A stretch of 64,000 nt of DNA from positions 1 through 64,000 of the forward strand of contig CAIKGD010000007.1 in the NCBI GenBank assembly GCA_903826865.1, read 5' to 3'. A program made the translations under genes and the position numbers. Positions 40,228-60,488 of the stretch are shown here, in pieces. Origin of the DNA: an uncultured Verrucomicrobiota bacterium (GTDB taxonomy: Bacteria > Verrucomicrobiota > Kiritimatiellia > Kiritimatiellales > Tichowtungiaceae). A model generated the notes under the pieces. It searched no databases, was not told where the DNA came from, and saw only the letters and a list, made by a program, of their open reading frames with translations. The first letter of the stretch is position 1. Each line of letters opens with the position of its first letter.

Positions 40228-43200
40228 TCAGCTCCTTGTTCTGTTTGTCATCTCCAGCAGCTTCTGATATTCGAAATTTTCAGCGAGACTCCTCAGCTGT
40301 CCGGCAACAGAGACATCGTGTTTTTCAATCTGATGAATCAGCTTTAACATCCGGTCGAGATCGGCGGAGATCGTGGCATCATGTAACTGATGGATGAGCG
40401 TTTCCGGCAAAGCCGCCGTTTTTTCTTTTAACACGGCATCCGCGTCATCCGGTTCAGGCGTGAGCGCTGAAGATTCATCGGCATAAACATATTCAATGGC
40501 CAGCAGCGCCTTGATTTTTTCAAGCAGAACCTCCTCGCGGAACGGCTTGCCGAGAAAATCGTCTGCACCGATTCCCAAGGCCTCTTTACGATCCTCCGCA
40601 AAAGCGCTGGCCGTTACGCTGATGATCTTGACCTTTTCTCCGCCGGCACTTGCCCGGATGCGTTTGATCGCCTCATAGCCATCCATTACCGGCATACGGG
40701 TATCCATAAGAATGATATGCGGCTGCCACTTTTCAAATTCCTGAACAGCCTGTTCACCGTTTACGGCTTCCCGGGGTTCAAAACCGAGTCTTTCCAGCAT
40801 CTGGGAAAGCAAGGCCCGGTTGTCCTCTTTATCATCGGCAATCAGCACCCGGATTATCTGCTGTCCGGGCCGGAGTCCCGTCACATGGCGGGGCGTTTCC
40901 TTTTTTCTCATCGTACCTTTGCGGCCTTCCTCAATATTAATTTCGAACCGGAAAATACTGCCTTTGCCAGGCTGGCTGTGGACGATCATGTCGCCGCCCA
41001 TCAAGCGGACGAATTCCCTGCTGATGGCAAGACCAAGACCCGTTCCCATTTGAATCTTCTTGCCGCTATCGGTTTGTTCGAACGGGCGGAACAGTTTTTT
41101 GATTTCGTCTCCGGCAATGCCCATGCCTGTGTCTTCAACCTCTGCCATCAGCCGCAAGGCTGTTCCGGTTCTGGTCTTAATACCGACCCGGACGGAAATA
41201 CCGCCGTTCCGGGTGAACTTGATGGCATTGCCGATCAGATTGATAAATACCTGGCGCAATTTGTTCTCATCACCAATGACACAATCGGGCAGGACACCCA
41301 CACGGTTCACGAGACAGCGCAGATTCTTTTCATCTGCACGCATCCGGAACATCATTGAAAGATCATCCAGCATGCCGTTCAGATCAAAAGCCGCCTGGTT
41401 CAAGGATGAACGGCCCGCCTCGATCTTGGAGATTTCCAGAATGTCATTGATGAGCGCCAGCAGATGCTCTCCGCTGCGGTTGATGGTCTGCAGGTGTTTT
41501 GTCTGCACCGGTGTTAATCCCGGATCCCGCATCATCAACTGGGAAAATCCCAGGATGGCATTCATCGGGGTGCGGATTTCATGCGACATGCTTGCCAGAA
41601 ATGCGCTCTTTGCCCGGTTGGCGATCTCTGCAGATTCCTTGGCCTTTTCCAGCTCGACGGTTTTTTCCTGTAACACCTGATCCAGACATTTGCGTTCAGT
41701 GATATCGCGTGCCGCGGCGAACACACCCTGCAGCTTCCGGTCCCGGTCGTAGAAGGTGGTTGCATTGTATGACACCGCCGTTTCTTTGCCGTCTCTGGCC
41801 TGCACGGTCAGCTCGTAGTTGGTGACCTTCTTATCACTCAGCGCCAGCTTGATGCTTTTTTCAGCCCGTTCCGGATCGGTGAAATAATTTTTAAACGGTG
41901 CACCGATCAGCTCGTCGCGCGTGCTTCCGGTGAGTATTTCCATTTGTTTGTTGGTGTCGGTGATGATGCCGGACGGGTCGGTGGTCATCAGCGCGTCGAT
42001 GTTGGATTCAAACAGGGAGCGTGTATAAAACTGATGATCGCGCAGGCGTTGCGCGAGCTGCTGCTGATTTGCTTCGATCTCTTTGCGCACGGTGTTATCA
42101 GTGCCGATCAGCAGGTAGCCGATAATCGTATTTTGAGCGTCGCGCAGCGCCGTGACCGATACGACCGCCGGGAAACGGCTGCCGTCCTTGCGGATGTAGG
42201 TCAGTTCGTAAATGTCCTCGATTCCGCGGGCGGCTTTGAACACCAGAGCTTCGAAGCCCGGGGTGATCGGTGTGGCGAGCTCAATGCTCAGTGTCGTGGC
42301 GCGCGCTATCAGTTCCTGCGGGTCGGAAATATCGGCGGGGCTGATCTTGTTCATCACATCGGCGGCGGCATAGCCCAGCATGCGTTCAGCGCCGACGTTG
42401 AAAATCTGAATGACACCTTTTGCATCCGTGGCGATGCTTGAGAAGTTGGCGCTGTTGAAAATGGCGCTTTGTAAAGCGCCGGCTTTGATCAAAGCTTCTT
42501 CCGCCAGCTTGCGGGCGCTGTTGTCGGTGCCGATCAGCAGGTAGCCGATAATCGTATTTTGAGCGTCGCGCAGCGCTGTGACCGATACAACCGCCGGGAA
42601 GCGGCTGCCGTCCTTGCGGATGTAGGTCAGTTCGTAAATGTCCTCGATTCCGCGGGCGGCTTTGAACACCAGAGCTTCGAAGCCCGGGGTGATCGGTGTG
42701 GAGAGTTCGGCGCTTAACGCTTTGGCGCGTGCGATGACTTCCTGCGGGTCGGAAATGTCGGCCGGTGTAATCTTGTTCATCACGTCGGCGGCCGCGTAGC
42801 CCAGCATGCGTTCGGCACCGACGTTGAAAATCTGAATGACGCCTTTCGCATCCGTGGCGATGCTTGAGAAATTGGCGCTGTTGAAAATGGCGCTCTGCAA
42901 AGCTCCGGCCTTGAGCAGTGCCGCTTCCGCCTGTTTACGTGCAGAAATGTCCCGTAAAATTCCGGTGAAGTGACGCTGACCGCCCAGCCACATCTCAGTA
43001 ACCGCTATTTCCAGCTGAAACAAACTGCCATTCTTGCGGCGGCCCGCGACCTCTCTTCCGAGACCGGCAGCACGCGACTCATCACTCGCACTGTAATATT
43101 CGATGGATTCATTGCGCTGATCCCGGTTGAATTCGGGTATCAGCAGACTTAAGTTTTTCCCGATGAGTTCTGCGGCGGTATAGCCGAACATCTGTCCGGC

Positions 43201-44409
43201 GGCCGGGTTGACGGTTTCGACCATGCCGTTGCTGGCCTGAAGAGTAATGATGCCGTCCGCCACGGAATTCAAAATCGTCTGAATTAACGCTGCACTGTCG
43301 CGGCCTGCCTGCTGTGTTGCATATTCCTCGGTAACATCGCGGAACACCAGCACGGCACCAATCACCTGACCGTCGCGGTTGTGAATCGGTGCGCAACTGT
43401 CGGCGATGGCGCACTCCTTGCCGTCGCGTGCAACCAGTATGGTGTGGTTGGCCAGGCCATGGATTGTGCCGCGGGCCAGAGTTTCCTTTACCGGGATCTC
43501 GGCGGACTGCCGGGTTTCCTGATTGATGATATGGAAAATCTCATCCACCGGGCGGCCGGTGGCGTCTGCCTGTGTCCAGCCCGTGAGCTGTTCGGCTACA
43601 GGGTTCAGAAGGGTCACCCGTCCTTCGGCGTCGGTGGCGATCACCCCGTCGCCGATGGAATGGAGCGTAACGGCGAGTTTTTCCTCGCTGACCTGCGCGA
43701 TGACGTTGGCCTGTTGCAACTGACGGCTCGTCTCCTGTTGAATCTCGAGCGCGTGTTGTGTTTCGAGATAAACCAGATTTCTGATCTGCTGCTGCGATTC
43801 CCGGTAGATCAGCCATACGAACGAAAGCATAAGAATCAGAGCAAGCAGGCTGGCGGCAGCGATGAGCATAAACAGATAACGCATTTTAGATTGAAATGCC
43901 GCGTCGTGCTGTGCCAGCGCGGCTTCTTCTATCTGAACGAAACCGCGCATCTCAGCGCGAATAGAATCCATCAGCCGCTTGCCTTTGCCGGTGCTTACAA
44001 CCGCCAGTACGGTCGGCAGGTCATGGTTGCGTCGCGATTCAATGACTTGTGCCATTTCAGCCAGTTTGGCGGCCATTAATGGAGCCAGCGCGTCCAGATG
44101 CTCATGGGCTGCACGGATTGAGGTGCTTTGACTCAATTCTTCCAGATTGCCGCGGATGTTGTCGCGTACCGCCAGATAAGGCTCCAGAAAAGTCTCATCG
44201 CCGGTGAGCGCATAACCGCGCTGACTGGTCTCGGCATCTCGCAATGCAGACAGGAAGGCATCCGCAAGGTGTATCACATCGTAGGTATGCTTCCGCGCGG
44301 CGGCCGCTTTCCCTATTTCGCCGAAAACCTGAAATGATGCCGCCACCGTGTAAGCAACCAGCAGAGCCGTTACAGCCAGCGGAATAATAATTTTATGAGC
44401 AGCTTTCAT
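40228..44409 (-). CDS. Large membrane hybrid histidine kinase (CHASE3, multi-PAS, receiver, HPt-like end)
   Basis: 1393 residues. Two membrane helices (~5-25 and ~180-200) flank a periplasmic CHASE3-type sensor. Then come about five PAS domains (~240-880), two of which are nearly identical (see repeat at 42105-42915), HisKA with 'FLASMSHEIRTPMNAILGFS', HATPase with 'GTGLGLAISREFVRLMGG', and a receiver with Asp in 'PHIILMDTRMPVMDGYEAIK'. The last ~80 residues contain 'LIHQIEKHDVSVAGQL' and look like a degenerate HPt domain. No DNA-binding output. The ATG at 44409 (GGGAAATC before it) is preferred over 44451. Operator 8 lies 82 bp upstream. Confidence 0.87.
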   Translation of the reverse strand: MKAAHKIIIPLAVTALLVAYTVAASFQVFGEIGKAAAARKHTYDVIHLADAFLSALRDAETSQRGYALTGDETFLEPYLAVRDNIRGNLEELSQSTSIRAAHEHLDALAPLMAAKLAEMAQVIESRRNHDLPTVLAVVSTGKGKRLMDSIRAEMRGFVQIEEAALAQHDAAFQSKMRYLFMLIAAASLLALILMLSFVWLIYRESQQQIRNLVYLETQHALEIQQETSRQLQQANVIAQVSEEKLAVTLHSIGDGVIATDAEGRVTLLNPVAEQLTGWTQADATGRPVDEIFHIINQETRQSAEIPVKETLARGTIHGLANHTILVARDGKECAIADSCAPIHNRDGQVIGAVLVFRDVTEEYATQQAGRDSAALIQTILNSVADGIITLQASNGMVETVNPAAGQMFGYTAAELIGKNLSLLIPEFNRDQRNESIEYYSASDESRAAGLGREVAGRRKNGSLFQLEIAVTEMWLGGQRHFTGILRDISARKQAEAALLKAGALQSAIFNSANFSSIATDAKGVIQIFNVGAERMLGYAAADVMNKITPADISDPQEVIARAKALSAELSTPITPGFEALVFKAARGIEDIYELTYIRKDGSRFPAVVSVTALRDAQNTIIGYLLIGTDNSARKLAEEALIKAGALQSAIFNSANFSSIATDAKGVIQIFNVGAERMLGYAAADVMNKISPADISDPQELIARATTLSIELATPITPGFEALVFKAARGIEDIYELTYIRKDGSRFPAVVSVTALRDAQNTIIGYLLIGTDNTVRKEIEANQQQLAQRLRDHQFYTRSLFESNIDALMTTDPSGIITDTNKQMEILTGSTRDELIGAPFKNYFTDPERAEKSIKLALSDKKVTNYELTVQARDGKETAVSYNATTFYDRDRKLQGVFAAARDITERKCLDQVLQEKTVELEKAKESAEIANRAKSAFLASMSHEIRTPMNAILGFSQLMMRDPGLTPVQTKHLQTINRSGEHLLALINDILEISKIEAGRSSLNQAAFDLNGMLDDLSMMFRMRADEKNLRCLVNRVGVLPDCVIGDENKLRQVFINLIGNAIKFTRNGGISVRVGIKTRTGTALRLMAEVEDTGMGIAGDEIKKLFRPFEQTDSGKKIQMGTGLGLAISREFVRLMGGDMIVHSQPGKGSIFRFEINIEEGRKGTMRKKETPRHVTGLRPGQQIIRVLIADDKEDNRALLSQMLERLGFEPREAVNGEQAVQEFEKWQPHIILMDTRMPVMDGYEAIKRIRASAGGEKVKIISVTASAFAEDRKEALGIGADDFLGKPFREEVLLEKIKALLAIEYVYADESSALTPEPDDADAVLKEKTAALPETLIHQLHDATISADLDRMLKLIHQIEKHDVSVAGQLRSLAENFEYQKLLEMTNRTRS
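42105..42915. repeat. Tandem duplication of a PAS domain (426-bp unit) in the CHASE3 kinase gene
   Basis: Two head-to-tail copies with a period of 426 bp (142 codons), for example 'GATAATCGTATTTTGAGCGT' at 42121 and 42547. The encoded PAS modules differ at only about ten residues (T/S, V/L, KALSAELS versus TTLSIELA), so the duplication is recent. Confidence 0.85.
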
Positions 44410-44490
44410 AGGTGATTTCCCGTCTACCTTCCTGTTTGCGGCATTCCGCAACGCTATAGCGATACGCTACGCCGGGCGGCAGTGCCGGCG

Positions 44491-44510
44491 CGATGGGGTA
44501 AAACCCTACC
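44491..44510 (-). promoter_or_regulatory. Operator palindrome 8 (toward CHASE3 kinase)
   Basis: Minus-strand GGTAGGGTTTTACCCCATCG; CGTAGC starts 19 bp downstream. It abuts the cbpM remnant at 44511 just as operator 11 abuts the real cbpM end, so operator and remnant were probably copied together. Confidence 0.8.
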
Positions 44511-44720
44511 CCGGTTGCGCAAAAAGCGCAGTTTGGCGCGCGCTTGACGAGGCTTGGGCAGACCTTTCCCTCGCAGACGGAATTCCCGTTCGTCTGTATC
44601 CCGGGCGGAATTTTCACCTGCAAGGTCTGATCCGTGGCCTGCCCTGTGAGCGGATCAGTGCGTTGCAGTTTGATTTTGCGCATCGAGCCGTGCAGGGCTT
44701 CGGTTATCCGTTCCGTACTT
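44505..44720 (-). pseudogene. Decayed cbpA-cbpM 3' copy
   Basis: Reading along the minus strand, '[20 protein letters not shown]' and '[11 protein letters not shown]' match CbpA (gene at 58988-59968). A 231-bp in-frame deletion follows, then, out of frame, DNA like the CbpA segment for '[14 protein letters not shown]', then the last codons of CbpM (RAKLRFLRNR against [11 protein letters not shown]) and at once the operator. The deletion joins two copies of CCGGGCGGAATTTT, which in the intact gene lie at 59169 and 59400 and encode KIPPG twice. Confidence 0.8.
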
Positions 44721-44852
44721 TCGGGATTTTTAACCCAGCCGAAAATGACGGGGTGCAAGCCATGAAAACCAGCAATAATTTCTGCCCGGTTCTTTTTGAC
44801 CTGCATTCATGCGAGCGTTCGCAATCTCCCCGCTCTTGTTCTTAAGTTCGGG

Positions 44853-44999
44853 TTACTTTTTGGTCTTTTCTGTAAGACCCTTCTTTCCTCCGGTCATCGA
44901 ACCCTGACCGCAGCAGTTGCCCTTACCCTTACCCGCACCTTTACCATGACCGTCTTTCGGCCCCTGACCTTTTGGTCCGGTTCCATCTTTGTTTGGCAT
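44853..44999 (-). CDS. Small Gly/Lys-rich DUF5320-like protein
   Basis: 48 residues: 'MPNKDGTGPKGQGPKDGHGK', then Gly/Lys repeats, 'NCCGQG' and a Lys-rich end. The MPxxDGTGPxGxGP start is typical of DUF5320-like small proteins, which often accompany metal or sulfur-related genes. GGAGAAAGGTG precedes the ATG. Operator 9 lies 108 bp upstream and points at it. The Cys pair could bind a metal. It is too short for usual gene finders. Confidence 0.7.
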   Translation of the reverse strand: MPNKDGTGPKGQGPKDGHGKGAGKGKGNCCGQGSMTGGKKGLTEKTKK

Positions 45000-45106
45000 A
45001 TTAATCACCTTTCTCCTGCTGGCGGACGATGGCGACTGCTGATTTGCCGCCGCGCCCTGATCCGCCCTGTTGCTGCATGCACTATGCGGCTGCGGACTCT
45101 GGAAAA

Positions 45107-45126
45107 GTATGGGGTGAAACCCTACC
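45107..45126 (-). promoter_or_regulatory. Operator palindrome 9 (toward DUF5320-like protein)
   Basis: Minus-strand GGTAGGGTTTCACCCCATAC; a CGCATAG stands 18 bp downstream (GCATAG at 19). Confidence 0.75.
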
Positions 45127-45156
45127 GCAGGCGGGGTAGCACGATGAAAATGAACG

Positions 45157-45318
45157 ATGGGAATCAGCCTGCGACAGCTTGCCGGAAAACGCTACACGCC
45201 CCGCGAAAGGTTTATGGCACCGCTTCCGGTCATCGAGGAAGCCATTGAGCTGATTATCTCCGGTAAAATCGTTGATTATGTTTACGACGAAGAGTTGAAG
45301 TTAACCCGCGAAAAATAA
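45157..45318 (+). CDS. Possible small protein, 53 residues
   Basis: Open frame starting 'MGISLRQLAGKRYTPRERFM' and ending 'LIISGKIVDYVYDEELKLTR' plus 'EK'. The charged helical end looks protein-like, but no good ribosome-binding site is seen (only GAAAATGAACG) and there is no operator for it. It could also be the 3' remnant of a longer gene. Function unknown. Confidence 0.3.
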   Translation: MGISLRQLAGKRYTPRERFMAPLPVIEEAIELIISGKIVDYVYDEELKLTREK

Positions 45319-45344
45319 CCCGCCGCCGGTCACCGGAGATTCGG

Positions 45345-57879: not shown

Positions 57880-58569
57880 TTATTTCAACTGCGCCGCTGC
57901 AAATTCCCAGTCCGCCAGATGATCAATGAAGGCTTCGACGAAATCTTTGCGGCGATTCTGATAGTCCAGATAATAGGCGTGCTCCCAGACGTCGCACGTC
58001 AAGAGCGCATTTTGACCGTGTGCGATCGGTGTATCGGCATTCGACGTTTTGACGATCTTCAACGCGTCGCCGTCCTGTACAAGCCAGACCCACCCGCTGC
58101 CGAACTGCGCGACGGCGGCAGCCGTGAAAGCCTCTTTAAATTTATCGAAGCCGCCGAACGATGTTTCGATCATCTTCAGCAGCCTGCCGGCAGGCTTTCC
58201 GCCTTCGCCCGGCTTCATGCTCTTCCAGAAAAAAGTATGGTTCCAGACCTGCGCCGCATTATTGAAAACGGCAGTTTTGTCCGGCAGGCCTGCGCTTTCC
58301 AAAATAACTTTCTCCAGCGTCTGTCCTGAGGCCCACGGTGTTCCTGCGACCAGCTTGTTCAGATTGTCCACATAGGCCTGATGATGTTTGCTGTAGTGGA
58401 AACTCATCGTCCGGGCCGACAGGTAAGGCTCCAGAGCATTCTGAGCGTAGGGCAGCGACAGCAGCGCGAACGCGGGTGCCGGCGGCTCCGCCTTTGCGGC
58501 GACAGCCATGCCCACCAAAGGGGCCAGAAACCAAACAGCCGACCAACTTTCACCGATGTACGCATTCAT
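57880..58569 (-). CDS. Exported Fe/Mn superoxide dismutase
   Basis: Turns superoxide into peroxide and oxygen. 229 residues with a likely signal peptide (to about residue 28), so it should act in the periplasm. Metal ligands: His in 'MSFHYSKHHQAYVDNL', His in 'VWNHTFFWKSM', and Asp and His in 'LLTCDVWEHAYYLDYQNRR'; 'GSGWVWLV' is the usual core. The ATG at 58569 is 66 bp from operator 11. First gene of a unit that may run through DUF6132, hydrolase, CheB and PPK2 genes. Confidence 0.93.
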   Translation of the reverse strand: MNAYIGESWSAVWFLAPLVGMAVAAKAEPPAPAFALLSLPYAQNALEPYLSARTMSFHYSKHHQAYVDNLNKLVAGTPWASGQTLEKVILESAGLPDKTAVFNNAAQVWNHTFFWKSMKPGEGGKPAGRLLKMIETSFGGFDKFKEAFTAAAVAQFGSGWVWLVQDGDALKIVKTSNADTPIAHGQNALLTCDVWEHAYYLDYQNRRKDFVEAFIDHLADWEFAAAQLK

Positions 58570-58634
58570 CTTCGTTCTCCTGTTGTTATGTTTCGTATAA
58601 CCATACGCATGTTGCACAACGGGCCGATTTTTTG

Positions 58635-58654
58635 CAGTGGGGTATAACCCTACC
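58635..58654 (-). promoter_or_regulatory. Operator palindrome 11 (toward sodA), overlapping the cbpM stop codon
   Basis: Minus-strand GGTAGGGTTATACCCCACTG. The TAG at its start is the stop codon of cbpM, so the operator is partly coding. TGCAAC, preceded by GTTG, starts 18 bp downstream and is a weak -10. Confidence 0.8.
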
Positions 58655-58991
58655 TCCGGCTGCGCAAAAAACGCACTTCGGCCCGCAGGCGCTCCACCTC
58701 TTTGATCAGATCGAACAGGGTTTTGATCCAGACCAGATCAAGGCCTTGAACAGTTCGCATGTACTCGATCCGCCGCACGGCATGAACAGCTTCTTCCGTG
58801 AATTCCATCATTCCATCCGGCGACGCAAAGACAGGTTGTACAAGACCGGCGCGGCAGTAAATCAGAATGGAGCGGCGGGGGACGCCGGCAAGACGGGCGG
58901 CTGCATCGAGACTGTAAAGCACATCGGGGCCGGGCAGAAAAACCTCAATGGAAAGGCGCTCCGGGCTGTCAGGAACATCTTGATTTTTCAT
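58650..58991 (-). CDS. cbpM: Chaperone modulator CbpM-like MerR-type protein
   Basis: 113 residues. '[20 protein letters not shown]' is a MerR-like helix-turn-helix, followed by 'CRAGLVQP' and a C-terminal coiled coil ('[20 protein letters not shown]'). In E. coli CbpM binds and restrains the J-domain protein CbpA; the position right after cbpA with an ATGA overlap says the same here. DNA binding is possible but not needed for that role. A decayed copy of its end lies at 44505-44546. Confidence 0.85.
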
Positions 58992-59968
58992 GAGATTTTC
59001 CTCGGGTTGAACGTGGATTTCGCGGCCAGCTTTTCCCACAGGACTTTTTCTTCCGGTGTAACCTGCGCCGGGACCTGAATGGATACGGCGGCGTGAAGGT
59101 CGCCGCGCTGCTTATTGATGCTTGGCAGACCTTTTCCGCGCAGACGGAATTTCCGTTCGTCCGTTGTTCCGGGCGGAATTTTAAGAGACGCTGTTCCATC
59201 CAGAGTCGGTATGCCGACGGTGGCTCCCAGCACGGCTTCCCACGGAGAGAGCTCCAAATCATAAAACAGGTCGGCATCCTTCACGCGGAAATCGGGATGC
59301 CGGGCGAACTTAACCCGCAAATACAGGTTGCCCGGATTGCCGCCGCCCGCACCTTCCCCTCCTTGACCCGCGAGGCGGATAAGCTGCGCTTCGCGGACGC
59401 CGGGCGGAATTTTCACCTGCAAGGTCTGATCCGCGGTCTGCCCTGTGCGCGGATCAGTGCGTTGCAGTTGTATTTTGCGCATCGAGCCGTGCAGGACTTC
59501 CGTAAGCGTAACCAGAATATCGCCTTCAATATCCTGTCCGTTCCTTGCGACGGATCCGCCGCGCATTCCGGACTCCGTCGCCTGGCCGAAACCGCCGGAC
59601 GGGCGTCCGCGACTGCCGAAGAACTGCTCGAAGAAATCGCTGAAGCCCGTACCTTCAAAATGGTAGTCAGACCCTTCGCCGGAATCTCTGCCGAATCCCC
59701 CGTATGCACCGCCCGGCTGCGAAGCCTGCCGTTCGGGATGATCCCGGTTTTCGACCAGCTCATCATACTTCCGCCGCTTATCCGGGTCGCTGAGGACTTC
59801 GTTGGCCTCGTTGACTTCCTTGAACTTCACTTCGCCGGTGACTTTGTCTTTTGTAGTATCGGGATGATATTTGCCCGCCAGTTTGCGGAAGGCCTTCTTG
59901 ATTTCAGCATCGCTTGCATTTCGTGCCACACCGAGGACGGCGTAGTAGTCCTTGAATTCAACCGGCAT
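58988..59968 (-). CDS. cbpA: DnaJ-class co-chaperone CbpA
   Basis: 326 residues. J-domain 1-70 with '[13 protein letters not shown]' (HPD present), a Gly/Phe-rich stretch ('[20 protein letters not shown]'), and two C-terminal substrate-binding barrels with the paired 'LQVKIPPG' and '[20 protein letters not shown]'. There is no zinc finger, so it is CbpA-type rather than DnaJ. It stimulates DnaK ATPase, but no dnaK is in the window. It overlaps grpE by 11 bp and cbpM by 4 bp. Confidence 0.95.
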
Positions 59969-60488
59969 GACGGACTCCGGGAGAATGATTCAGAACATTT
60001 ACAACGACCTTGGCCGGACGGAAGATCTGATCGCCGAGGCTGTAGCCGCGATGCGTAACTTCAAGAATGATTTGATCGGGCTGGTGCGGATCATGCCGCG
60101 CACAAACCGCCTCGTGACGGTGAGGATTGAAAGGCAGGCCGATGTCCTCGACGGGCTCAATACCGTGGCGGCGGAGCAACTGAGCCAGCTGTTGCAGCGT
60201 TATAGCCACACCTTGATGAAGGGGTGTAGAAGCCGGAGAGTGCTCGGCAGCCAGAGCGAGCTCGAGATTGTCGAGCACCGGCAGCAAGTCGCGGATGAAG
60301 GCTTCTTTTTCCGCCGCAGCGGCCAGTCCGGAGTCCCGCCGGGTGCGTTTCTTGAAATTTTCGAAGTCGGCGGCGAGCCTCAGATAATGATCCTTCTGTT
60401 CAGCCAGCTCCTCACGGAGAACGACAGAATCATCTGCCGCTGCGGGCTCGTGCGCATCGTCTGCCGGGTCTGGAAGATCGGACTGCAT
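59958..60488 (-). CDS. grpE: GrpE nucleotide exchange factor
   Basis: 176 residues. A long helix ('[20 protein letters not shown]') leads into 'NFKKRTRRD', then '[17 protein letters not shown]', '[20 protein letters not shown]' and '[20 protein letters not shown]', the GrpE hallmark. It releases ADP from DnaK. The ATG at 60488 has AAAGGGAG; a start at 60518 adds ten residues without a site. This GrpE is coded with cbpA-cbpM, so it may be a second, stress-specific GrpE. Confidence 0.93.

Follow-up and report, generated by a model that had tools for sequence, protein, structure and literature searches.

Promoter capture through tandem duplication or illegitimate recombination has precedents, for which the section of PMC11111574 that deals with them cites Anderson and Roth 1978, Matus-Garcia et al. 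2012 and Oren et al. 2014. The locus described here resembles the cases outlined in that section in that part of an upstream gene has been duplicated and lies beside a promoter, with short repeats at the joints; unlike them, the gene concerned, coding for a CHASE3-multiPAS hybrid histidine kinase, seems to have owned its promoter beforehand, and no silent gene has visibly been switched on. The duplicated piece corresponds to the CbpA-CbpM pair (PMC4063869), in which the gene for a DnaJ-like CbpA is followed directly by that for a MerR-like CbpM, but differs from that pair in being a non-coding leftover that carries two deletions and frameshifts. Finally, the promoter recalls those of NarL/FixJ-type regulons (HisKA_3 kinase plus LuxR-type regulator), with an imperfect inverted repeat, TAGGGTnnnACCCCA, upstream of the -10 and with the kinase and regulator genes sharing an island with the sites, the binding of the regulator being a prediction in our case.

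The window, i.e., the whole stretch of 64,000 nucleotides analysed, contains 11 operators when two mismatches are admitted, against 0.5 expected. With one mismatch allowed, the operator pattern GGTAGGGTTNNACCCC was found at 13 sites, in a single orientation and all within C7:11.8-74.2 kb; outside C7, a search of the 2.64 Mb assembly retrieved one weak site, on C27. Most operators have a TAnnnT -10 at 24-25 nt past ACCCC. The kinase gene (nt 40228-44409, minus strand; Pfam CHASE3, PAS, HisKA, HATPase_c and Response_reg) is preceded on the same strand by operator 8 (GGTAGGGTTTTACCCC, nt 44495-44510), identified by pattern match, and by a putative -10 (TAGCGT, nt 44464-44469), located 25 nt after ACCCC in the alignment of operator contexts. 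Intact copies of cbpA (nt 58988-59968, DnaJ and DnaJ_C domains) and cbpM (nt 58650-59018, MerR_1 domain) are also on the minus strand, as are operator 11 (GGTAGGGTTATACCCC, nt 58639-58654), which includes the cbpM stop codon TAG, and, downstream of it, a Fe/Mn superoxide dismutase (SOD) gene (nt 57880-58569, Sod_Fe_N and Sod_Fe_C).

BLASTN comparison of nt 44400-45150 with nt 58500-60000 returned three blocks in the same order and on the same strand, corresponding to a decayed cbpA middle and C-terminus and to the last ~10 cbpM codons (nt 44704-44511, minus strand). The middle part of cbpA (nt 44601-44704) matches nt 59400-59503 with 93% identity over 104 bp (E 9e-42), the C-terminal part, which is frameshifted (nt 44537-44614), matches nt 59104-59182 with 84% over 80 columns with gaps, and the operator together with the cbpM 3' end (nt 44494-44541) matches nt 58638-58686 with 86%. 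The cbpM remnant (nt 44511-44541) abuts operator 8 and shares 26 of its 31 nucleotides with nt 58656-58686; when this tail was searched without the operator, over the whole window and on both strands, its best match was indeed the one adjoining operator 11, the runner-up reaching 20/31. A chance similarity to cbpA-cbpM is ruled out by this result and by the E value of the middle block. Three ordered blocks at 84-93% identity represent the collinearity with an intact paralogue by which a pseudogene is recognised, and operator 8 is flanked by the remnant as operator 11 is by the intact cbpM end. The preliminary description had reported at nt 44505-44720 a copy of the cbpA end and the last cbpM codons, running directly into operator 8 with the same order and spacing as the intact genes. 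The copy and its direct run into the operator are confirmed by the three blocks, with the extent corrected to nt 44511-44704; the order also holds, as does the distance from the cbpM tail to the operator, which differs by 1 nt between remnant and intact copy, while the cbpA-to-cbpM spacing does not, 231 and ~417 bp having been lost.

The first of these losses can be read from the 14-bp direct repeat CCGGGCGGAATTTT, present twice in intact cbpA, at nt 59169 and 59400, and once in the remnant (nt 44601-44614), where the 231 bp between the two copies are missing. A single repeat at the joint, together with the missing stretch, is the signature of a direct-repeat deletion. The second deletion, marked by a GCG-rich joint, took away the end of cbpA together with the greater part of cbpM, and the remnant carries further 1-nt indels. 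One of them, a deletion, leaves the cbpM stop out of frame (CGG GGT AGG); thus, the TAG that the preliminary description had placed within the operator of both copies is the real cbpM stop in the intact copy only. The coding capacity has been lost through the two internal deletions and the frameshifting indels, with no complete domain left. Reconstruction of the deletions indicates that the original copy began at or before cbpA codon ~155 and extended as far as the cbpM end.

The two sides of operators 8 and 11 behave differently when compared separately. Both upstream sides carry the cbpM tail and, as the preliminary description had anticipated, the similarity reaches the operator and does not stop well before it. 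It ends there, with none onward to the kinase or to SOD: the gene-side halves agree in register at 10/44 positions (p=0.64, chance level), so that the copied segment is without the kinase promoter. In comparisons covering 30-44 nt and one genome each, with the genomes picked after looking, each gene side was found to resemble the promoter of the same gene elsewhere. In particular, the gene side of operator 8 matches the CHASE3 kinase promoter of G143, which belongs to a different family, in 23/44 positions (p=2e-4), or in 21/30, where the next of the window's operators reaches 14/30; the gene side of operator 11 matches in register the SOD promoter of G203 at 25/44 (0/20,000 shuffles as good), the two promoters having an unusual -10 region, TTGkGCArCATG, at equal positions of the alignment. 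Orthologous genes of relatives are preceded by the same promoters. This agreement with the own gene's promoter elsewhere suggests that the operator-kinase and operator-SOD promoters probably predate the cbpM junction. On these alignments, it would be simplest to suppose that each promoter arrived together with its gene and that attachment of the cbpM tail took place at the operator twice, or once with a later exchange. In this view, the operator looks more like the seam left by a short-homology recombination than like its cargo. A crossover inside the operator and an operator-carrying copy later overwritten are indistinguishable, because the operators are constrained.

We therefore favour, with a probability of roughly 0.6, an origin of the remnant as a second cbpA-cbpM copy placed against the kinase's own, older operator-promoter, joined at the operator and later decayed. 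The two older promoters, operator-kinase and operator-SOD, would already have belonged to one regulon, and the cbpM 3' end would have been linked to both by recombination within the ~16-bp operator or at its border, the operator being itself a directly repeated sequence in the island; we infer this crossover and the order of events. The second copy, so abutting the kinase's operator-promoter with at least the extent reconstructed above, would then have decayed through short-repeat deletions and frameshifts, and expression of the kinase would probably be driven from operator 8 by the NarL-type regulator of the island, acting with a -10 of the sigma-70 type. Taken by itself, such an event is a commonplace partial duplication followed by decay. 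It left a readable scar at the operator of a regulon, where an apparent spread of operators can be checked by comparing the operator's two sides separately. A broader idea, which we regard as speculative and rather improbable, is that operators double as recombination joints, with operons cut and rejoined at the ~16-bp repeat and promoter-bounded cassettes shuffled under the same regulator; if true, the gene order of stress islands of this sort could change with regulation kept.

The two cbpA-cbpM copies flank a 14-kb SOD-to-NdvB segment as direct repeats, an arrangement expected from tandem duplication as well as from integration by a single crossover. By either route, for example, the direction of the event may have been the reverse, with cbpA-cbpM initially in front of operator 8 and its kinase; the intact SOD-side copy would then be the newer one, and the old copy would have decayed. 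We consider this possible, although unlikely. In G143 and G200, belonging to two other families, cbpA-cbpM shares its strand with the kinase and precedes it by 0.7-2.7 kb, thus indicating that the neighbourhood is old and that the pair may have resided in front of the kinase first; nevertheless, other genes intervene between cbpM and the kinase in both, namely a glycogen phosphorylase-like gene in G143, and a hydrolase fragment and small genes in G200, whose kinase is without the CHASE3 end. The age of the remnant speaks on both sides. Using six outgroup genomes, 8 differences were polarised as changes in the remnant and 6 as changes in the intact gene, the others being undecided. Being ancestral at 6 of the 14 polarisable differences, the remnant was not copied recently from the gene in its present form, which favours the reverse direction; the polarisation is, on the other hand, nearly symmetric and points to a similar divergence time for the two copies. 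The SOD gene of G203, moreover, also has its own operator, against a reverse direction.

Less likely again is that the SOD site was the source of a copied cbpA-cbpM-operator segment which carried the operator to the kinase, thus enlarging the regulon, as implied by the original proposal that one event seemed to have placed a ready promoter before the kinase. The cbpM/operator junction, common to both copies with the 1-nt difference, would agree with it. Indeed, cbpM homologues at 56-69% identity adjoin cbpA in six other genomes, and in these six the cbpM stop was not found within an operator, an arrangement seen only here; related genomes were checked for the same junction, as the preliminary description had advised, and it was not found in any having cbpM, including the only 5 other genomes of the class with this gene. 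The copy from the SOD site is contradicted by the gene-side halves, which do not match, by the likeness of operator 8 to the G143 kinase promoter, and by the kinase homologues of four other genomes (G143, G319, L048 and L050), which have the operator upstream and no cbpM end at it, and which would speak against a kinase that lacked this promoter before the event. Operator 8 as a plain copy of operator 11 was rejected as the main reading owing to the differing gene-side halves, and the sequence evidence as a whole suggests that the duplication did not supply the kinase with its promoter. That the two copies were acquired separately from related donors, with no duplication in this genome, is very improbable, for although both copies have derived changes, and the lack of cbpM and kinase in same-genus genomes indicates that the island was probably acquired, the identity of the best remnant block is 93% with the cbpA of this genome vs 75-78% with the nearest other genomes, and the operator junction is common to both copies.

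The remnant DNA had no match in the other 13 genomes of the genus, no other genome searched from the genus and order had cbpM, and no other genome searched from the genus had the kinase; no state before, after or intermediate to the event was seen among the genomes searched, and plasmid records gave no match. Literature searches on CHASE3/cbpM regulons returned nothing directly relevant, and no bacterial regulon was among the matches listed for the operator sequence. SOD is preceded by an operator in G203 and G602, with no cbpM end at it in either. An operator was counted within 500 bp upstream of 4/10 kinase homologues vs 1/29 SOD homologues (p=0.011), and the kinase was on this basis considered as an old member of the regulon and SOD as a new one; this view was dropped, G203 having an operator before its SOD pair, which consists of two tandem genes behind a single operator (L161 11802-13056).

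As for the regulator, a HisKA_3 histidine kinase and a NarL-type response regulator are encoded in the same island at C7:69085-71174 (L029 9085-11174), the regulator gene (C7:69091-69759, Response_reg plus GerE) being located just beyond the window, and they are the probable master pair of the operator regulon. In the set of relatives, close regulator homologues (E below 1e-70) were found in 4/5 genomes with the exact operator, this one included among the five, vs 1/53 others (p=6e-5), and the lone exception, G050, having the regulator and no exact operator, showed an operator when the pattern was loosened. In L048 and L050, the operator and the CHASE3 kinase follow directly on the regulator gene. 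This co-occurrence and adjacency indicate the NarL-type regulator as the predicted ligand of the operator and as the likely cognate of the operator 8/11 regulon.

Operator 11 and the operator at C7:74198 share 34 bp at 94% (nt 58626-58659 and L029 14185-14218, the latter corresponding to C7:74185-74218), spacer CTGCAAAAAATC included, and on the gene side they agree at 28/44 positions, which makes this operator at least as close to operator 11 as the SOD promoter of G203. For copying of a promoter inside the island, this pair makes a stronger case than operators 8 and 11 do, and other parts of the island may have seen some promoter copying. A partial alpha/beta-hydrolase copy (82% at nucleotide level; L116 9481-9774 and 1308-1616) lies between cbpM and the kinase in G200, occupying the same slot as the remnant of the window, where partial duplications may recur. 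A short orphan reading frame on the plus strand (MGISLRQLAGKRYTPRERFMAPLPVIEEAIELIISGKIVDYVYDEELKLTREK, nt 45159-45319) faces operator 9 and is possibly another remnant. The same island codes for an Ice-binding-like plus Calx-beta protein (L029 4714-7230). Finally, the run of PAS domains in the CHASE3 kinase gene contains a tandem 434-bp repeat (nt 42083-42942), 89% identical and spaced 426 bp, and a similar internal repeat, 94% identical, occurs in the G143 kinase.
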